Assembly: GCA_029553845.1 (NCBI GenBank)
Contig: JAKPKF010000333.1
Location: 1-8,925, forward strand
DNA from: a bacterium
GTDB taxonomy: Bacteria > Patescibacteria > Dojkabacteria > SC72
Direction: 5' to 3'
DNA: 8,925 nt
The notes beneath the pieces were generated by a model, which worked only from the letters and a program-made list of their open reading frames with translations, was not told where the DNA came from and did not search any database. Positions within the stretch are counted from its first letter, which is position 1; every line of letters starts with the position of its first letter. Made by a program: the position numbers and the translations under genes. Shown here piece after piece: positions 3,436 to 8,703 of the stretch.

Positions 3436-4218
3436 TTATAGTTCAACAATAAAGTTATTATCACGCCACTTTTTACGCTCATCGGGGTAACCTCGGGGGT
3501 TACAAATAAATGCAGTATTTCCTATATTAGTACGATATGAGCTATGAGTATGACCATACACCCAGTATTTTACTGATGTATTGATGTTCAGTAGATGTGA
3601 ACATTCTACAGCAAAATATGGATTAAATGCATCATTTGCATATTCCGGAGTGATACAATAACGTGATGGTATCCAGTGTGTTAGTAATATTACTTTACCA
3701 TCTTTATGCTCAGTAATGGTTTTAGTGAGATATTCACGAGCTTGATTATGTAGAGATATATAATCATGTGGGGTGATACACCCACTCTCCTGATCATTAT
3801 GAATATACCCAAAATCATTAATCATCTTATATCTTGGGTGTGTAGATTCTACTACACCATTACCGAAAAGATTGAAATCAGTATATAGTGGGCTACCTAC
3901 AATAACATACCCATTGAATGTGGTATAATTATTATCCAGGAAGTTGAAATATCTAGAATGCAGAGCTTTATCATGTAAGAACTCTTTAGCTTGTAGAATG
4001 GATGTACCATAAGCGTCATGGTTACCCATAACATAAAAACACGGTACACGTAATGACTCAAGAAACAATTCCCAATTCTGAGGACTATTAACTTGACAGG
4101 CATCACCGGCACAAAATATACAATCCACTTGAGTGTTAGAAATAAAATCGAACAGTATTTTATTCCGAGTTTTACTCCAATGGTCAAGGTGTAGATCGCT
4201 TAGTATTAATGCTTTCAT
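3436..4218 (-). CDS. Calcineurin-like metallophosphoesterase (260 aa)
   Basis: The motifs are in canonical order: SDLHLDH (residues 7-13, D8 and H10), AGD (37-39), GNHD (65-68), THW (180-182) and GHTH (222-225). Together these residues coordinate two metal ions. The SDLH/GHTH pattern is that of the phosphodiesterase-type members (YfcE/MPE and DNA-repair-exonuclease-like), not the PP2A type encoded at 1565-2266. The substrate could be a cyclic phosphodiester, nucleotide or nucleic-acid end. It sits 11 nt after the HAD phosphatase gene and before the SH3/KOW-like gene in one operon. The start ATG (4218) is the first in frame, and no Shine-Dalgarno site is visible. Confidence 0.92.
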   Translation of the reverse strand: MKALILSDLHLDHWSKTRNKILFDFISNTQVDCIFCAGDACQVNSPQNWELFLESLRVPCFYVMGNHDAYGTSILQAKEFLHDKALHSRYFNFLDNNYTTFNGYVIVGSPLYTDFNLFGNGVVESTHPRYKMINDFGYIHNDQESGCITPHDYISLHNQAREYLTKTITEHKDGKVILLTHWIPSRYCITPEYANDAFNPYFAVECSHLLNINTSVKYWVYGHTHSSYRTNIGNTAFICNPRGYPDERKKWRDNNFIVEL

Positions 4219-4229
4219 GTGGAGTATGA

Positions 4230-4703
4230 TTACTTCTTTTTCTTGTTAATACAAGCCCATTCATACAACTTCTTAATATTACTAGTACTCATACCGTCAT
4301 TAGGATCTGTATGAATTACATGTGGAGTGATATCTTCCATATCGAAAATGTCATCATCTAATACAATAAACTTATCAACATCCGCGTGCTTATCTAACCA
4401 TTGACGAATTTCTTTACCACGAGATCCACTAATTCCAGTCTTCCAATCCTTATGTAAATGTTCTGTAAGTTTATGCTCACTAAGCCGTACACCTAAAATA
4501 TCTGATTTATCATAAGGGTTAACACAATAATGTCTCCATGATGAAGATATTACTATTTCTACACCACTCTTACAAACCTCTTTAATAGCCCTAGCACCTA
4601 CAGGATCCCACGAATCTATAATACCTCTACGTTTACGAGCGTATGCATAGTGTGCACGTAGTGTACATAACACACCATCAATATCTAGGAATAAGATTTT
4701 CAT
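4230..4703 (-). CDS. HAD-like phosphatase of the Swiss-Army-Knife RNA-repair type
   Basis: A 157-aa HAD-fold protein. Motif I is FLDIDGVL (residues 5-12; nucleophile D7 and acid D9). Motif II is VISSSWR (51-57). A lysine-containing segment (DWKTG, 86-90) and RGKEIRQWLD (95-104) precede motif IV, IVLDDD (113-118). The VISSSWR signature and short length without a large cap match the HAD domain group described in Swiss-Army-Knife RNA repair proteins and common in phages. A likely role is removal of phosphates from nucleic-acid ends or small phosphoesters, but the substrate is not shown. The start ATG overlaps the upstream stop as ATGA. The C-terminus ends in a Lys run (NKKKK). Confidence 0.9.
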   Translation of the reverse strand: MKILFLDIDGVLCTLRAHYAYARKRRGIIDSWDPVGARAIKEVCKSGVEIVISSSWRHYCVNPYDKSDILGVRLSEHKLTEHLHKDWKTGISGSRGKEIRQWLDKHADVDKFIVLDDDIFDMEDITPHVIHTDPNDGMSTSNIKKLYEWACINKKKK

Positions 4704-5011: not shown

Positions 5012-6484
5012 TTAATCTGTAAGCATTTCAAACTCTCGAATATAATCAATGACGGATTCCGACCAACCATCAATCGATGTCCACTTACCGTAACCTACAC
5101 CGTACTGAGTATTAGCAACATTGATCATGTAAGCTTTATCCGTGAGAGGTGCTGGTGATATATCCTGTGCTTTACCGGTACATCCCGAGGCATAAGAGTG
5201 GGTACCGGCAGCGCTCATAACATGCCACTCACCATCAGTTAAGACGATGATGCGATCATACCCCTCTTTATTTGCTTGCTCAACCGCGAGACCGCCGCAA
5301 CTCCATCCATTTTGGGTTTTGGCGAGTGCATCCCGAAGGGCGAAACCCCGGCGCGGAGGAATTGAATAAGATTGTTGGTTAAAAGCGAAAATAGAAACTT
5401 CTTCGCAAACTTCCCTAACCAACATACTCAAAGCCGCTGCCGCTTCAAAACGGTCAATTTCAGACTTAACAGATACTGGCGCACCAACCATTGATGGGGA
5501 TGTATCAATGATGAGCGCGGTTTTACCTTTCAGCTTCGGAAGATCAGCACAACCCCTAAACATTGCTTGTTCAAGTTCTGGTTCAAAGTGTGGAGCATAT
5601 TTTGCTGCTGAAATAAAACGGAACGGTAGAACCCTGGAAAAATTAACAGACGTAAAAGCCTTACGAATTACATCGCGGCTAACTCCACACTGTTCCATAT
5701 TACGAAGATTACGCAGAAAAGCAAGACCACCAAGTTTACCTTCGGTAATAAGACGAGTCCATTCGATACGCTTCTCCTGCTCATTCTTACAAGCTGAAAT
5801 TGCAACTTCCCAAGTATCGGGAGTTTGTAGAGTATCATTGATTAACTTAGTGAAAACCGATTTTGCGTGTCGATGTACCTTACCGCGAGAGTATGAAACA
5901 CCTTTACCGCTCTTTTTATCGATAGCGGGTACTAACTTTCCTCTCTTACCCTGAACATCAGTAGGTACTGCATGTGTCAAAAACAGAACATCGCGTAGCT
6001 TAACTTCATTCTGTTGATTATACTTTGCTAGAGAATATTCATCAAACTTACTGAAAGCTTGAGCTAGACCTCGTTTAACTTGAGCACTTAAAGTTTTCTT
6101 ACCGCCATTAGTCTTCCAATAAATTGAAAGAAATTCAGTCAATTCATCAGGACGCTGAATAACCTCACTTAAAATGGTTGAAACAAATGACTTGTGTGTA
6201 TCATGTCGTGCCATTTCACGAGCGATAAACAGTGGTACGTGACGAAGATGCTGATCATTACGCGCTTGAATAGCGAGTGAGGCAACCTTATCAGGTGCAA
6301 CCTTAGGTACAAGATTTGAAATTCGCGCAGCAATCTCTTCACCACTTTCATAGAAACCGGATTCCCAAAGCATAGTCGCTAAGACCGTGCGCTTGAGTTG
6401 AAGATATGGTGAGATGCTTTGAACGCGAGCACCCTCGTGGTTGAAGACTGGCTGTGACTTAGCGGGTTTATTTGTTTTAGACAT
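5012..6484 (-). CDS. rsr: Ro60-like TROVE domain RNA-binding protein
   Basis: This 490-aa protein is an orthologue of Ro60/Rsr, the ring-shaped protein that binds Y RNAs and misfolded RNA ends. The N-terminal part (about residues 20-310) is the helical TROVE ring, with patterns such as LVPKVAPDKVASLAIQARND and GKLGGLAFLRNLRNM. The C-terminal part is a von Willebrand A-like domain whose metal site begins DTSPS (D327, S329, S331), with LTDGE at 415-419. The Thr usually found after the GG pair of this metal site (GGT) is replaced in GGLAV (397-401), so metal binding may be altered. In bacteria Rsr works with Y RNAs and exoribonucleases such as PNPase in RNA decay. Here two Y-like RNAs lie directly upstream on the same strand. 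The ATG at 6484 has no Shine-Dalgarno site. Confidence 0.95.
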   Translation of the reverse strand: MSKTNKPAKSQPVFNHEGARVQSISPYLQLKRTVLATMLWESGFYESGEEIAARISNLVPKVAPDKVASLAIQARNDQHLRHVPLFIAREMARHDTHKSFVSTILSEVIQRPDELTEFLSIYWKTNGGKKTLSAQVKRGLAQAFSKFDEYSLAKYNQQNEVKLRDVLFLTHAVPTDVQGKRGKLVPAIDKKSGKGVSYSRGKVHRHAKSVFTKLINDTLQTPDTWEVAISACKNEQEKRIEWTRLITEGKLGGLAFLRNLRNMEQCGVSRDVIRKAFTSVNFSRVLPFRFISAAKYAPHFEPELEQAMFRGCADLPKLKGKTALIIDTSPSMVGAPVSVKSEIDRFEAAAALSMLVREVCEEVSIFAFNQQSYSIPPRRGFALRDALAKTQNGWSCGGLAVEQANKEGYDRIIVLTDGEWHVMSAAGTHSYASGCTGKAQDISPAPLTDKAYMINVANTQYGVGYGKWTSIDGWSESVIDYIREFEMLTD

Positions 6485-6514
6485 GGAATACCAATGTTTA
6501 TGTTGAAAAATAAT

Positions 6515-6591
6515 GGCTGTAGGGAATAATCGAATGAGGTCGTGACCACGTCTTTAGAATAGAAGTAACCCCATTCTACACCACTACAACC
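6515..6591 (-). ncRNA. Y RNA-like RNA 2
   Basis: On the minus strand the ends pair as GGTTGTAG (6591-6584) with CTACAGCC (6522-6515), with one A-C mismatch, and the pairing continues through GG/CC past a bulge. After an internal loop, AATGGGGT pairs with ACCTCATT with one C-A mismatch. The distal loop contains GTGGTCAC. It shares GGGTTACTTCT and TCGATTATTCCC with the neighbour at 6601-6684, and the mismatch position is conserved, which shows that the two are paralogous RNAs. GGGTTACTTC resembles the conserved GAGUUAUCUC of vertebrate Y RNAs, the Ro60-binding part. A T-rich end (ATTATTTTT) follows, 30 nt before the Ro60 ATG. It could alternatively be a structured Ro60 mRNA leader. Confidence 0.75.
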
Positions 6592-6600
6592 AAAATATGA

Positions 6601-6684
6601 GAGTTTGGGGAATATTCGATTAAGGTTGCCGTGAAGGCGGATATTTTACATAAGAAGTAACCCTAAACTACCACCACCAAACTC
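6601..6684 (-). ncRNA. Y RNA-like RNA 1
   Basis: A perfect 8-bp end helix, GAGTTTGG (6684-6677) with CCAAACTC (6608-6601), continues as GG/CC past a one-base bulge. An internal loop (TGGTAG opposite TCGAATATT) and a second helix follow (TTAGGGTT with AACCTTAA, one mismatch). A short distal hairpin, GCC TTCAC GGC, closes the structure. GGTAGTTTAGGGTTACTTC resembles the vertebrate Y RNA segment GGUAGUGAGUUAUCUC that contacts Ro60, which also indicates that the minus strand is the RNA strand. It lies 9 nt from the second copy and 7 nt after the 129-nt tRNA-like RNA, so all three probably come from one transcript. Confidence 0.75.
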
Positions 6685-6690
6685 AAAAAG

Positions 6691-6820
6691 TGCGCTCGCT
6701 AGGAATTGAACCTAGATATCGATCTCCAAAAGATGAACTGCTTATCTATCACCACATCGCAATTCGATAGGAATAAACGATAAACAGGTTTACGCGTCCT
6801 AACCATTAGACGACGAGCGC
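6691..6820 (-). ncRNA. Oversized tRNA-like RNA (129 nt plus discriminator) upstream of the Y-like RNAs
   Basis: The acceptor stem is perfect: GCGCTCG (6820-6814) with CGAGCGC (6698-6692), then A73 (6691), with no encoded CCA. The D arm is normal (GTCT AATGGTTA GGAC). The T arm is perfect (CTAGG TTCAATT CCTAG, 6715-6699). Between the D and T arms there are about 80 nt where a normal tRNA has about 23. CGTAA and TTGCG can form a stem in the anticodon-stem position around a 27-nt loop. A second arm, ATC TTTTGGA GAT, could present TTG (Gln) if about 57 nt were absent. It could be a tRNA with an insertion, or a Y RNA with a tRNA module like bacterial YrlA. It follows a promoter and a GTTCTTT motif. 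Confidence 0.7.
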
Positions 6821-6829
6821 GAATGTTGA

Positions 6830-6836
6830 AAAGAAC
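6830..6836 (-). promoter_or_regulatory. GTTCTTT motif 9 nt before the 129-nt tRNA-like RNA
   Basis: This copy lies downstream of the predicted start of the promoter at 6854-6881, so it is inside the transcript. It therefore behaves like an RNA processing or binding site and not a promoter element. Confidence 0.6.
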
Positions 6837-6853
6837 TTTAACTTGATTCAAAT

Positions 6854-6881
6854 ATAGTATGATACTTTCATAATTAGTCAA
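6854..6881 (-). promoter_or_regulatory. Sigma70-type promoter for the tRNA-like RNA, Y-like RNAs and Ro60
   Basis: On the minus strand, TTGACT (6881-6876), a 16-bp spacer, then TACTAT (6859-6854). The predicted start near 6847 is 27 nt before the tRNA-like RNA. No other promoter is visible before the Ro60 gene and no strong terminator intervenes, so one transcript could carry all four products. Confidence 0.65.
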
Positions 6882-6901
6882 GTGTTTTTATAGAAATTGT
6901 T

Positions 6902-7038
6902 CTCACAAACATCACCATGCAATGTAGTCGGACAAGAGCCTTCCCTCTTTTTATGCCGATTAAGCGCTACCTGCATCGAGACTGCCAGAAGGTTCGGGGT
7001 CAGTGTGATGTTGTGAGTTTCTTTATGGGAGCTACCCA
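6902..7038 (-). ncRNA. Structured RNA F, closed by a 13-bp helix
   Basis: CTCACAAACATCAC (6902-6915) pairs with GTGATGTTGTGAG (7005-7017): 13 pairs with one bulged A. Inside are ATGCA/TGCAT (6917-6921 with 6972-6976), GTAG/CTAC (6924-6927 with 6967-6970), TCGG/CCGA (6928-6931 with 6956-6959) and AAGAG/CTCTT (6934-6938 with 6945-6949). These make one long arm, beside a second GC-rich branch (6977-7004). A 5' hairpin (TGGG/CCCA, 7026-7038) precedes it on the minus strand. The strand is inferred from the neighbours and the GTTCTTT motif at 7057-7063. I do not recognise the family. Confidence 0.65.
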
Positions 7039-7056
7039 CAAGAGAAATGCTGATAT

Positions 7057-7063
7057 AAAGAAC
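7057..7063 (-). promoter_or_regulatory. GTTCTTT motif before RNA F
   Basis: It lies 18 nt before the 5' hairpin of RNA F, the longest gap of the set, within TTTAGTTCTTTATAT. Confidence 0.5.
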
Positions 7064-7065
7064 TA

Positions 7066-7218
7066 AATTATAGTGGACCGATTCACACGATCCTTAGCCT
7101 GCCAGTTCTGCATAAAGACTCTCGTTAGGCTTTAACGTTTCCTTGTAACCCGACGGCTCCCATGGTGCGCGACCTTTCGGTAAGCGTTGGAAACGACTTG
7201 TGGTCTGGGGAAATTTGT
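7066..7218 (-). ncRNA. Structured non-coding region with a GAAA-capped hairpin
   Basis: CGTTTCC (7136-7142) and GGAAACG (7189-7195) form a 7-bp helix. Inside it, on the minus strand, ACC GAAA GGT (7181-7172) is capped by a GNRA tetraloop and extended by CGC/GCG, which favours the minus strand as the RNA. Two mutually exclusive pairings involve 7127-7131: CGTTA/TAACG (7123-7127 with 7133-7137), and AGCCT (7096-7100) with AGGCT (7127-7131). That arrangement could be a switch or just ambiguity. It has no motif of its own at its 5' end, so it may be the 3' part of the RNA E transcript. The family is unknown. Confidence 0.5.
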
Positions 7219-7310
7219 TTCGACGCTCGCCGGAGTACACAAAGAAGTAATTAATTTCTCGTGCGCGGTAAGCACGTTACTCCCGCATAGGAATCGAACC
7301 TATCGTCGAA
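7219..7310 (-). ncRNA. Structured RNA E with a T-arm hairpin outside a tRNA
   Basis: The outer helix is TTCGACG/CGTCGAA (7219-7225 with 7304-7310). Directly inside it on the minus strand is a perfect tRNA-type T arm: ATAGG TTCGATT CCTAT (7303-7287). Then comes a helix, GGAGTA/TACTCC (7232-7237 with 7278-7283), enclosing a hairpin with a 5-bp stem and a 7-nt loop (CGTGC TTACCGC GCACG, 7276-7260). The T arm occupies the first position after the 5' strand, not the last, and the segment after it (GCGGGAG) has no 5' acceptor partner, so this is not a tRNA. It appears to be a tRNA-mimicking RNA of about 92 nt. Confidence 0.65.
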
Positions 7311-7319
7311 GATGTGTGA

Positions 7320-7326
7320 AAAGAAC
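7320..7326 (-). promoter_or_regulatory. GTTCTTT motif 9 nt before RNA E
   Basis: Its context, TTTAGTTCTTTTCAC, closely matches the copy at 6830-6836 (TAAAGTTCTTTTCAA), and the spacing to the RNA is the same. Confidence 0.55.
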
Positions 7327-7413
7327 TAAAATGGTGAGTCGAGCAGGTGTCTTGCGATTCCTCGGCTCAAATATCCTTTCGGTCCTGTTTTGCATGTACA
7401 TGACAAAATTAGT
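7327..7413. other. Spacer between RNA E and the 135-nt tRNA-like RNA
   Basis: I see no reading frame of interest and only weak pairing here. It contains short GC-rich patches (GTGAGTCGAGCAGGTG, GATTCCTCGGCTC), which may be the 3' trailer of the tRNA-like RNA or part of another unrecognised RNA. Confidence 0.4.
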
Positions 7414-7548
7414 GAGTTTGTGTAGGACTCGAACCTACAAGAGAGTTATCAAGTTTCAGTCCTTCTACTCCCAGTGGCTTTCACCTACCAACTGAAGTTG
7501 GGTCATAGGTTACTGACCTCCACGTCTGCCATTTTCGTCAACAAACTC
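7414..7548 (-). ncRNA. Oversized tRNA-like RNA (about 135 nt) with an 8-bp acceptor
   Basis: The ends GAGTTTGT (7548-7541) and ACAAACTC (7421-7414) pair over 8 bp, like the extended acceptor of tRNA-His, and are followed inward by a perfect T arm (GTAGG TTCGAGT CCTAC, 7438-7422). The body is about 100 nt, longer than in any standard class I or II tRNA. Possible hairpins inside are GGTCA/TGACC, CCAAC/GTTGG, GTG/CAC and GGGAGT/ACTCTC. A D-arm-like segment with GG (ACG AAAATGGCAGA CGT) follows the acceptor. I find no anticodon arm with a 7-nt loop and T33 that pairs well, so an amino acid cannot be assigned. It has no GTTCTTT copy directly before it and may be cut from the RNA D transcript. Confidence 0.65.
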
Positions 7549-7563
7549 GTGATTGTTATAAAC

Positions 7564-7661
7564 TCTCAACCTATCAGTATGTTATACCAATTCCGTCAAA
7601 TAGACATCAACTAGTATGGACGGCCCCCCTCTAGGTGCGTCTATCCGCGCGGAGGTTGAGA
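7564..7661 (-). ncRNA. Structured RNA D, closed by a 9-bp helix
   Basis: TCTCAACCT (7564-7572) pairs with AGGTTGAGA (7653-7661). Inside, on the minus strand, are CCGTC/GACGG and a possible competing ATAGAC/GTCTAT pairing that would cross it as a pseudoknot, plus a self-complementary CCGCGCGG directly after the 5' strand. The RNA would be about 98 nt. The GTTCTTT motif at 7674-7680 lies 12 nt before it. The family is not recognised. Confidence 0.6.
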
Positions 7662-7673
7662 AGTTAAAATAGA

Positions 7674-7680
7674 AAAGAAC
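7674..7680 (-). promoter_or_regulatory. GTTCTTT motif 12 nt before RNA D
   Basis: It is embedded in a T-rich tract on the minus strand (TTTTTTTGTTCTTTTC) and followed by A, not T, on the plus strand. It is a weaker match in context than the copies at 6830 and 7320. Confidence 0.45.
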
Positions 7681-7689
7681 AAAAAAAGA

Positions 7690-7825
7690 AATAGGCCGGT
7701 TGGGTATTTCACCCATTATTCGGGAAACGCTTTCTTTTATAACGTTCCAATGTCAGGAAAGAAAGTATGATTTACTCTCGAAGGCATCCGGTAATACCTA
7801 TACGAATCACTCGTATTGAGGTCGC
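7690..7825 (-). other. Hairpin-rich non-coding stretch
   Basis: It contains GGGT ATTTC ACCC (7702-7714), CTTTCTTT/AAAGAAAG (7730-7737 with 7758-7765), and a strong hairpin ATACGA ATCAC TCGTAT (7800-7816) extended by ACCT/AGGT (7796-7799 with 7819-7822). No coding frame looks real. On the minus strand this is directly downstream of the tnpB remnant. It may be flanking sequence, a further RNA, or both. Confidence 0.45.
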
Positions 7826-7846
7826 GTTTTCAACATTTAATTACAC

Positions 7847-7940
7847 CGTGAACTACCACGCCCTAAAGGGCTGTGGCTTCCTGCTTCACAGAAAAACCAA
7901 TGTTCTTCTCCACAGGCTTAAAATCCCGTCGTTCCGACGG
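7847..7940 (-). mobile_element. IS200/IS605-type right-end / omega-RNA remnant
   Basis: A stem CCAC-GCCC-TAAA-GGGC-GTGG (7856-7876, one bulged T) is followed on the minus strand by GTAGTTCAC, the layout I know from the 3' ends of IS605/IS1341 tnpB genes. A second hairpin, CCGTCG TTC CGACGG (7926-7940), lies upstream on the minus strand. The last codons of tnpB overlap these hairpins, as is usual because the omega RNA includes the 3' end of the gene. No intact tnpB or tnpA lies in the window. This is either a degraded insertion or a retained guide-type RNA scaffold. Confidence 0.6.
7863..7940 (-). pseudogene. tnpB 3'-terminal remnant
   Basis: The minus-strand frame from 7940 to TAG (7865-7863) reads PSERRDFKPVEKNIGFSVKQ, then EATAL and stop. 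The KPVE followed by KQEA pattern just before the stop is one I associate with the C-termini of IS200/IS605 TnpB proteins. The frame stays open upstream only as a Lys/Asn-rich, low-complexity run and shows no RuvC or zinc-finger motifs, so the body of the gene is missing. Recognition is from memory of the family. Confidence 0.55.
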
Positions 7941-8020
7941 TATAAAATTATTTACACTAAAATTCAAGAATTTTTTGTTTTTTTTGTAAGATTTCTTATT
8001 TTTTTCTTTAAACACCCTTG
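7941..8020. other. AT-rich spacer
   Basis: This is mostly T on the plus strand (runs TTTTTTG, TTTTTTTTG and TTTTTTTC) with no gene or strong fold. On the minus strand the A-rich sequence joins RNA C to the tnpB remnant. Confidence 0.5.
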
Positions 8021-8101
8021 CGGACCTGTATCCCGGCGCTAAAGCGACCGGGTTTTAGGTCCGTCAATTTTATAAAACGCAACGGATATGGTGGGAAATT
8101 G
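8021..8101 (-). ncRNA. Structured RNA C with a strong three-tier hairpin
   Basis: CGGACCT/AGGTCCG (8021-8027 with 8057-8063) encloses CCCGG/CCGGG (8032-8036 with 8048-8052) and CGC/GCG around TAAA (8037-8046). A 5' arm (CAATTT/AAATTG, 8065-8070 with 8096-8101) lies on its minus-strand 5' side. It directly follows the stop of the small gene 8117-8347, with the GTTCTTT motif between them. No T run follows, so it does not look like a classical terminator. An IS605-type left-end palindrome is another possibility, given the tnpB remnant about 80 nt away. Confidence 0.6.
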
Positions 8102-8107
8102 TTATGT

Positions 8108-8114
8108 AAAGAAC
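8108..8114 (-). promoter_or_regulatory. GTTCTTT motif between the small gene and RNA C
   Basis: It begins 2 nt after the stop codon of the 8117-8347 gene and ends 6 nt before RNA C. That gene has its own promoter (8372-8399), so this copy must lie within its transcript. Confidence 0.6.
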
Positions 8115-8116
8115 TC

Positions 8117-8347
8117 TTAAACTTCAACCGTTATATCAACTGGTCGAACTATTGCAAATTTATATCCCGTCCGCGGATCAACACTCGACGAGACCATACA
8201 TTCTTCATCTAACTTCTTTTTAGTATAAAGAACGCTATCCGTATCAAGTCCGTGGGGTTCAAAGAAAACAAATACACCATGTTCGTTTACTTGAACTCGC
8301 ACATATGTTTTCTTTTTATTCTTCTTCTTTTTCTTGCTGTTTGTCAT
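8117..8347 (-). CDS. Small basic hypothetical protein, 76 aa
   Basis: It starts at ATG 8347 (MTNSKKKKKNKKKTYVRVQV). An earlier in-frame ATG at 8380 is excluded because it lies upstream of the predicted transcription start (about 8365). A Lys/Asn tract (residues 4-13) precedes what looks like a small beta-rich domain (KTYVRVQVNEHGVFVFFEPH, then GLDTDSVLYTKKKLDEECMV) ending in RPVDITVEV. The basic N-terminus suggests nucleic-acid or membrane contact. No family is recognised. It is the only complete protein gene in the RNA cluster, and its transcript leads into RNA C. Confidence 0.7.
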   Translation of the reverse strand: MTNSKKKKKNKKKTYVRVQVNEHGVFVFFEPHGLDTDSVLYTKKKLDEECMVSSSVDPRTGYKFAIVRPVDITVEV

Positions 8348-8371
8348 GTTATTGTTTAATTTATACGACCT

Positions 8372-8399
8372 ATTATACAAATCTTATCGCTCAAGTCAA
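8372..8399 (-). promoter_or_regulatory. Near-consensus sigma70 promoter
   Basis: On the minus strand, TTGACT (8399-8394), a 16-bp spacer, then a perfect TATAAT (8377-8372). Transcription would start near 8365, leaving an 18-nt leader without a Shine-Dalgarno site before the ATG at 8347. It is the strongest promoter in the window. Confidence 0.85.
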
Positions 8400-8413
8400 G
8401 AGTTTTTCTTGAA

Positions 8414-8526
8414 AATTTTCTCTCCCAACAAATCCACCGTAAAGAATTCTAAGCGCGCTACTTACGATCGGTTTGCTTTCCCAAAACCCAAGTTGCCACT
8501 TTGTTACCTCAGTGGGAGAGAAAATT
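8414..8526 (-). ncRNA. Structured RNA B, closed by a perfect 14-bp helix
   Basis: AATTTTCTCTCCCA (8414-8427) pairs without mismatch with TGGGAGAGAAAATT (8513-8526). Inside, on the minus strand, are CCACT/AGTGG, GGTTT/AAACC around a 9-nt loop, and TAAG/CTTA around TAGCGCG. The RNA would be about 113 nt, multi-branched. GTTCTTT at 8533-8539 ends 6 nt before its 5' end. No reading frame inside looks coding. The family is not recognised, and no T-loop is present. Confidence 0.7.
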
Positions 8527-8532
8527 ATTATA

Positions 8533-8539
8533 AAAGAAC
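8533..8539 (-). promoter_or_regulatory. GTTCTTT motif 6 nt before RNA B
   Basis: It sits between the Trp-like tRNA trailer helix (ends 8550) and the first base of the RNA B closing helix (8526), a position suited to separating two RNAs of one precursor. Confidence 0.55.
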
Positions 8540-8559
8540 TGAAATTGTTGAGGCTTTTT

Positions 8560-8633
8560 ATCCCGCAATGAGATTCGAACTCACATCACCAACTTTGGAA
8601 GTTGGAAATTTTACCATTTAAACTACATCAGGA
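8560..8633 (-). tRNA. tRNA-Trp-like (anticodon CCA), atypical acceptor
   Basis: The anticodon arm is perfect: CCAAC TTCCAAA GTTGG (8605-8589), with anticodon CCA at 8598-8596. The D arm (GTTT AAATGGTA AAAT) and T arm (GTGAG TTCGAAT CTCAT, one G-T pair) match bacterial tRNA-Trp. The acceptor TCCTGAT/TGCGGGA pairs at only five of seven positions (A6-G67 and T7-T66 mismatched), and there is one extra T between the D arm and the anticodon stem. CCA is not encoded. Outside the acceptor, GAGGCTT and AAGCCTC (8639-8633 and 8556-8550) form a further 7-bp helix. It may be a decaying or a specialised tRNA. Confidence 0.75.
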
Positions 8634-8640
8634 AGCCTCG

Positions 8641-8695
8641 GTTGGGTCGTGTGTTGATCAAGCACCGATACCCATTTATCGTTTTACCGACAAAT
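8641..8695 (-). other. Leader hairpins upstream of the Trp-like tRNA
   Basis: On the minus strand, GGGT/ACCC encloses GTG/CAC and the palindrome TTGATCAA. A competing GTCG/CGAC pairing uses 8691-8688 and 8649-8646. It could be a small separate RNA following the motif at 8704-8710, or the 5' leader of the tRNA precursor. Confidence 0.4.
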
Positions 8696-8703
8696 TATTT
8701 CTT

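Follow-up and report, generated by a model that had tools for sequence, protein, structure and literature searches.

The 8,925-nt contig JAKPKF010000333.1 (assembly GCA_029553845.1; Patescibacteria, Dojkabacteria), analysed here over its full length and referred to as the window, carries on its minus strand a TROVE/Ro60 (Rsr-like) gene (5012-6484), two plain Y RNAs (6593-6513 and 6686-6599) and a third RNA (6820-6691) that ends like a tRNA. The window element looks virus-like, with four of the nine window proteins searched matching PHROG families; its DNA gave no match to phages in a near search with the window or a distant search with 6485-8700. It is probable, judging from sequence, that this element carries a Ro60 ribonucleoprotein (RNP) unit in which the TROVE protein is joined by both plain Y RNAs and by a tRNA-ended Y RNA that is a permutant of YrlA. 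Sequence and covariation together demonstrate the gene, the two Y RNAs and the open-ended third RNA, in which a predicted, sealed Ro60-binding module sits between the D arm and an anticodon-like arm.

The 490-aa reading frame had been called a TROVE/Ro60 gene by an earlier, sequence-only reading of this DNA, and the homology searches bear this out. Its product contains a TROVE domain (Pfam PF05731, 2e-17; 64 bits against a cut-off of 23) and matches the RNA-binding protein family PHROG_850 at 2.7e-40, and its profile matches the solved TROVE proteins 9l5y and 9kop as well as Ro60 (1yvp). An AlphaFold model (pLDDT, the predicted local distance difference test score, 76.6) is helical up to residue 312, with strands and helices after it, a layout as expected for TROVE plus a von Willebrand A domain. 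The C-terminal von Willebrand A family PF25045 scores 19.9 bits on the protein, below its cut-off of 27.7, and the motif DTSPSM, which we take to be the metal-site motif of that domain, is invariant across 24 sequences. Among 7999 scored candidates, 7998 match the window protein; the best matches in named phages (88 records; Brevundimonas, Xanthomonas, Caulobacter and others) reach ~41%, and a search of viral contigs for exact peptides of the protein found none. The reading frame is intact, and three relatives that are 88-92% identical (92, 92 and 88%) lie on ~4.5 kb contigs; a fourth is 69% identical, and the four contigs measure at most 4565 bases.

The two plain RNAs are encoded beside the Ro60 gene, on the same strand. 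They had been noticed previously as paralogous stem RNAs with a shared sequence, and both claims hold: the motif is present in both, and both match R1, a covariance model of Y RNAs built from 45 RNAs of other loci with the window excluded. Y RNA 2 (6593-6513) scores 60.2 bits (E = 4.1e-17) and Y RNA 1 (6686-6599) scores 45.5 bits (E = 1.6e-12), the third-ranked window match reaching only E = 1. Y RNA 2 has an outer stem (6591-6584/6522-6515), a T bulge, GG, the strands TGTAG / CGATTATTCC, an inner stem and an apical TTACTTC; Y RNA 1 has an outer stem (6684-6677/6608-6601), a 5′ motif with one extra G, and TTACTTC. Fold z-scores are −4.7 for 6505-6595 (equalled by 0 of 200 shuffles), dropping to −1.2 when the stretch is trimmed to 6515-6580, and −2.3 for 6598-6685 (equalled by 7 of 200). 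An early idea that the Ro60 motif is inverted in the plain RNAs was dropped. Rfam finds no Y RNA family among its four matches in the window at E up to 5, so support for the Y RNAs comes from models built in this analysis. The covariance-model search that the sequence-only reading had proposed is negative with Rfam and positive with R1 and R2 (a model of tRNA-ended RNAs described below), which between them match all three RNAs. By these matches, 6593-6513 and 6686-6599 are Y RNAs, with Ro60 binding predicted, and a Ro60 gene side by side with its own Y RNAs is well supported.

The family behind R1 was examined in a sample of 160 TROVE loci, 80 from viruses and 80 from bacteria or archaea (records are cited by handles such as L006). 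The motif TACTT...CG..T[GA]TTC occurs 157 times in 85 of these 160 loci, 149 times on the TROVE strand and 8 times on the opposite strand; the reversed motif occurs 29 times, both strands together. The window's own Y motif was searched for in viral contigs, and none was found. The family plan is an outer stem, a bulged T, GG, a TGAAG-like strand, an inner stem, TTACTTC with an apical part, the returning inner stem, a CGCTTGTTCC-like strand and the outer stem. R1 uses 45 of 54 short RNAs, including L006:2655-2716, which appears cut short; conservation of the motif letters follows from how the set was selected, which does not apply to the stems. Paired cells make up 87.8% of the alignment (57.3% in shuffles), with a covariation score of 0.787 (0.219 in shuffles), above all 500 shuffles and all slid controls. 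At E ≤ 0.001, R1 has 158 matches in the 80 viral TROVE loci, every one on the TROVE strand (40 of the 45 RNAs behind the model themselves come from these loci), and matches in 8 of 12 named-phage loci, including crAss001.

The apical hairpins of the Y RNA family resemble anticodon stem-loops. Following TTACTTC, a perfect 4-bp stem is present in 94 of 135 Y RNAs from the 160 loci, versus 70.6 in shuffles, and 7-nt loops number 32 versus 7; loop position 2 is T in 45 of 59 and position 6 is a purine in 50 of 59, both figures being without a control. The likeness speaks for a decoy function, whereby tRNA-ended Y RNAs and YrlA would soak up anticodon nucleases or other tRNA-cutting defences. This is rather unlikely, as no defence nuclease is known for this host and a decoy would not need Ro60.

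The third RNA (6820-6691, minus strand) consists of a 7-bp acceptor stem, a D arm, the sealed Ro60-binding module (6787-6738), an anticodon-like arm and a T arm, with an A after the acceptor. The Ro60 motif strands in the window RNAs are CGTTTATTCC / GGTGATAG. Within the RNA, the acceptor and D arm are followed by the module in permuted order, namely the inner 3′ strand (6787-6780), CGTTTATTCC (6779-6770), the outer hairpin TATCG-AATTG-CGATG (6769-6755), a bulged T, GG and TGATAG (together 6754-6746), and the inner 5′ strand (6745-6738); then come TTCATC with the anticodon-like hairpin, the T arm and the acceptor. Pairing is complete in the acceptor (7/7), D (4/4), inner (7/7), outer (4/4) and T (5/5) helices. 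The TTCATC variant and an extra 5′-motif base are also seen in Y RNAs of L190, L248, L262 and, with TTACATC, L258. The fold z-score is −3.2 (0 of 200 shuffles equal it), and the permuted-module score, combining motif and pairing, is 39.0; the best of 60 dinucleotide-shuffled windows reaches 26.8, and the best antisense strand among the 160 loci 22.7.

What kind of RNA is this? Its acceptor, D and T arms stand in tRNA order, but a 50-nt module separates the D arm from the anticodon-like arm. By reading, ordinary YrlA in TROVE loci runs from outer stem, Ro60 motif and inner stem through TTACTTC with an anticodon-like hairpin and a T arm to a loop-sealed acceptor stem, a D arm, and the returning inner stem, Ro60 motif and outer stem. 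The window RNA likewise has D, T and acceptor arms joined to a Y stem, but it ends at an open acceptor stem and its Y stem is sealed by its own loop. In its predicted structure, 6820-6691 is a circular permutant of YrlA, in which the parts are kept and the ends shifted. The sequence-only reading had listed a tRNA-like RNA here; that it belongs with the Y RNAs is upheld by R2 and covariation, whereas its nature as an open-ended YrlA permutant had gone unseen. A possible second, degenerate tRNA-ended Y RNA, not secure, lies upstream at 7548-7412 (minus strand; R2 19.7 bits, E = 0.0018), with Leu-like T and D parts and a hairpin followed by TAGGTGAAAG. Its degenerate look could suggest that the TROVE gene and the RNAs are functionless relics, an explanation that is barely credible given the intact 490-codon frame with relatives at 92% and the intact helices of all three RNAs.

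R2 was built from six RNAs of other records (two each from L037 and L322, one each from L227 and L045), with the window excluded, and matches the window RNA at 55.5 bits (E = 2.1e-11). In the training set, 17 of 27 pairs are changed on both sides, which 0 of 500 shuffles equal. The next window matches are 27.0 bits at 6673-6535, straddling both plain Y RNAs, and then the 19.7 bits at 7548-7412. The candidates came from a pattern scan of viral contigs in which 100 matches were scored and kept for reading if acceptor pairing was at least 6 or a CG stood before the motif; among 27 distinct CG-type candidates, 7 were listed and 4 accepted (the window, L037, L227 and L322). Reading of L037 and L322 revealed a second copy in each, and L045 came from a local scan. 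A search of viral contigs for a narrow, window-like permuted pattern found none.

The layout recurs in further records. R2 led to its acceptance in L006, L007 (two), L033, L048 and L070 and in two bacterial contigs, L155 (one) and L150 (two). Among crAss-like phages it was accepted in crAss001 (MH675552.1:96451-96597, complement strand), PhiCrAssBcn17, cr106_1 and cr112_1. The 80 viral TROVE loci gave 90 R2 matches, three of them training RNAs; 20 were read and 7 accepted, and the other 67 were not read singly, so at least 7 of the 80 viral TROVE loci have the layout. The 80 genome loci gave 14 matches (9 read, 3 accepted, in L155 and twice in L150), and seven named-phage loci gave 21 (4 accepted). 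Including the window and the training RNAs, the total is 20 RNAs in 16 records. A TROVE gene lies within 2 kb on the same strand in 15 of the 16, most of which were picked for holding TROVE (L322 and L227 were not); L227 (66.8 kb) is without TROVE. The order in L322 is similar to that in the window, with a Y RNA (by eye), two tRNA-ended RNAs and TROVE. Alignment of 17 of the 20 RNAs to R2 gives two-sided changes at 22 of the 27 pairs, every one of the seven acceptor pairs among them; this alignment is itself structure-fitted. L045 was counted despite an acceptor of 5/7, having been in the training set. Two matches were not accepted: L126, with acceptor 7/7 and a module of 107 nt, and L023, with acceptor 5/7 and a module of 27 nt. 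In L234:13062-12912 and in L254, a Tyr-like tRNA appears, by eye, to hold a Ro60 module inside its anticodon loop; both were excluded from every model and count.

Several observations weigh against a Ro60 RNP unit with a permuted YrlA. First, rejected R2 matches reach 47-79 bits, a range that spans the window's 55.5, and are mostly ordinary tandem YrlA arrays straddled by R2; the score does not separate the layouts, and the assignment thus rests on module length and pairings. Second, the window module, at 20 nt from CC to GG, is at the edge of the accepted range, with the nearest rejected match at 22 nt. Third, ARAGORN in its bacterial and intron modes calls no tRNA at 6820-6691, and with the module removed and the flanks joined it calls selenocysteine (SeC) for the window, Lys for L037 and none for L227; nor does the window RNA have an encoded CCA. 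Fourth, the R1 alignment has 15 pairs changed on both sides, versus 14.6 in shuffles, which is no excess. Fifth, no exoribonuclease, PNPase or rtcBA family was recognised among the nine window proteins searched.

The first two points bear on the possibility that the arrangement is ordinary, in that one YrlA contributes its 3′ half and the next its 5′ half, the permuted look arising from tight spacing. Neighbouring Y RNA motifs in tandem arrays are often 16-24 nt apart, and R2 spans arrays of this kind at scores up to and above the window's. On the other side stand the window's acceptor (7/7), inner (7/7) and outer (4/4) pairing and its 20-nt self-paired module. From CC to GG, the module spans 13-20 nt, with a self-paired loop, in the 20 accepted RNAs and 22-107 nt in the 27 other aligned R2 matches, although module length served as a ground for acceptance, so that this split describes two groups more than it provides an independent test. 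Acceptor pairing is 7/7 in 17 accepted RNAs, 6/7 in two and 5/7 in one (L045). Only L126, L136 and L119 reach 7/7 among the 27 others, with modules of 107, 68 and 45 nt, such that none combines a 7/7 acceptor with a module below 45 nt. Among 67 ordinary junctions (22 with a T arm and a testable acceptor), none has inner pairing of at least 7/8 with acceptor pairing of at least 6/7, a cut that was chosen afterwards and that the accepted L037 (6/8, 7/7) and L045 (5/8, 5/7) also fail; the window has 8/8 and 7/7. By eye, there is no T arm or acceptor hairpin just upstream of the window RNA and no D arm just downstream. Tight spacing of ordinary YrlA genes is a very improbable explanation.

Alternatively, the module could be an intron-like insertion in a tRNA gene, removed to leave a working tRNA. 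The acceptor, D and T arms are complete, the insertion adjoins the anticodon-like arm, and in the variant L234 it seems, by eye, to lie inside the anticodon loop. As to tRNA identity, the window's anticodon-like loop reads, by eye, TTTTGGA (UUG, glutamine); L037 resembles histidine tRNA in its loop CTATGGA and in a G ahead of position 1 that faces C73, and L227 resembles isoleucine tRNA in its loop CTGATAA. The lenient mitochondrial mode of ARAGORN calls Gln(ttg) at 6752-6690 on the intact window, together with three other calls. However, no tRNA bearing the expected anticodon is called on the joined flanks, which leaves the Gln-, His- and Ile-like assignments as readings by eye. In addition, the insertion is a Ro60-binding motif with covarying stems, found beside TROVE genes, and Rfam finds no intron family at this site (a result that does not cover archaeal-type splice motifs). 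Splicing to a working tRNA is, on these grounds, very unlikely. CCA is encoded behind the acceptor in five relatives (L227, L033, L006, L045 and L037:4088-4217).

How might a Ro60 RNP unit with a permuted YrlA work? TROVE and the three RNAs are probably one transcript, ending at the terminator behind the TROVE gene. The terminator at the end of the unit, as first proposed, has in its favour a 13-pair hairpin with a T run at 4995-4966 (minus strand), directly behind the TROVE stop codon and with the longest stem of the four such sites in the window, but as a class these sites are not above chance (4 versus 3.4 expected). The accompanying claim of one promoter is unproven: the promoter-like TTGACT-16-TACTAT at 6881-6854 (minus strand) is weak (9/12), and shuffles contain sites of this kind at least as often (8 found versus 9.5 expected). 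Each of the three RNAs would be bound by Ro60 at its module. Through the open acceptor end, tRNA enzymes (RNase P, CCA-adding enzyme) may gain access to the third RNA and mature it, and the RNA would then give Ro60 a tRNA-type handle. Ro60 could thereby be tethered to a nuclease or to tRNA-binding factors, and during infection the unit would most likely serve RNA quality control or the repair of the translation apparatus. The sequence-only reading's suggestion of a complete RNA-decay particle that would reprogram the turnover of host RNA is speculative, no exoribonuclease having been recognised among the nine window proteins searched. A broader proposal, tentative and open to considerable doubt, is that phages including crAss001 carry tRNA-Y RNA chimeras, as YrlA permutants, that are trimmed and perhaps charged by tRNA enzymes and bring Ro60 to EF-Tu, synthetases, ribosomes or tRNA-cutting nucleases.

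Three further genes assigned by Pfam lie downstream on the same strand as TROVE: an HAD_SAK_2 gene (4230-4703) and two calcineurin-like phosphoesterase genes (3436-4218 and 1565-2266). RNA repair genes of jumbo phages include TROVE, a Swiss-army-knife HAD and, in a few phages, calcineurin-type phosphatases (PMC7824862). By analogy, the three neighbours would fit an RNA repair island.

The upstream part of the window is rich in RNA-like features, all on the minus strand. All eight copies of GTTCTTT in the window fall in 8710-6830 (2.0 expected on both strands, and 0 of 200 shuffles have as many, for a motif picked by eye first), one copy lying inside an 87-aa open reading frame (ORF). It resembles boxA, the antitermination element of ribosomal RNA leaders. 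In 7318-6985, ACTCCGGC comes after a T arm and GCGGGAGT, and beyond it the open frame KPNESLYAELAG-stop looks, by eye, like a proteolysis tag. From its sequence, this stretch may be a divergent, circularly permuted transfer-messenger RNA (tmRNA); no tmRNA was found by ARAGORN or by Rfam (E up to 5 for the window, up to 10 for 6880-7340). In cr106_1, an annotated tmRNA lies ~2.3 kb upstream of the TROVE gene. The stretch 7940-7845 contains GTGAAGCAGGAAGCC...CCCTTTAGGGCGTGGTAGTTCAC, which resembles the right end, or omega RNA, of IS605-type elements; no TnpB family was found among the nine window proteins searched. Two stretches, 7669-7556 and 8535-8405, are closed by inverted repeats of 17 and 23 nt (−38.8 and −37.7 kcal/mol, without shuffles). 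A tRNA-Trp (8633-8560; ARAGORN and Rfam) has a poor acceptor stem and lies inside a longer GAGGCTT/AAGCCTC stem.

Vertebrate Y RNAs have a Ro60-binding stem with a CGAAG-like 5′ strand and a CACUUG-like 3′ strand. The Ro60-binding stem is common to these and the window RNAs, but the latter have no Rfam Y RNA match and the third has tRNA parts. Ro60 with Y RNAs is already known in bacteria and phages (PMC12282133, PMC8394870, citing Chen 2014). As in the Rsr/Ro60 systems of Deinococcus and Salmonella (PMC7790460, PMC8394870), the window has a TROVE gene with adjoining Y RNA genes; unlike them, it has three RNAs of two architectures, and its nine proteins searched include neither an rtcBA nor a PNPase family, nor any recognised nuclease that would correspond to the tethered PNPase of RYPER (Rsr-Y RNA-PNPase). 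YrlA is a tRNA-like bacterial Y RNA (review PMC8394870), and its structure 6CU1 superposes on tRNAs with circular permutation (PMC11472068). The window RNA is like YrlA in having a Ro60-binding stem, D, T and acceptor arms and a gene next to Ro60; the YrlA of these loci ends at the Ro60 stem with a loop-sealed acceptor, whereas the window RNA ends at the acceptor with a sealed Ro60 stem. TROVE/Ro60-like genes have been described in Listeria phage CKA15, whose authors suggest Y RNAs near the Ro60 gene (PMC12282133), in jumbo phages (PMC7824862, PMC7765460) and in crAss001 (PMC8375218, PMC10136315), where the TROVE gene is among the first expressed, at 0-10 minutes, and for which infection RNA-seq from one-step growth is named (PMC8375218; BioSamples SAMN16810643-SAMN16810654). 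The available portions of these phage descriptions carry no RNA of permuted layout, whereas the window RNAs are defined by models and covariation. The permutant may have been drawn before in Chen 2014, Wang 2018 or Sim 2018; among the papers listed in searches of the open literature, to which the primary Y RNA papers did not belong, none was seen to describe a YrlA permutant with open acceptor ends.

YrlA resembles a tRNA despite its sealed acceptor end. The natural occurrence of an open-acceptor permutant in several phages suggests that the combined tRNA-plus-Ro60 shape is preserved in evolution while the ends move. With the permutant, one could ask whether the tRNA part serves as a tRNA end, for CCA addition, charging and EF-Tu, or only as a shape. 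Indeed, crAss001, a growable gut phage with an early TROVE gene, shares the layout, so such a test may be made there.

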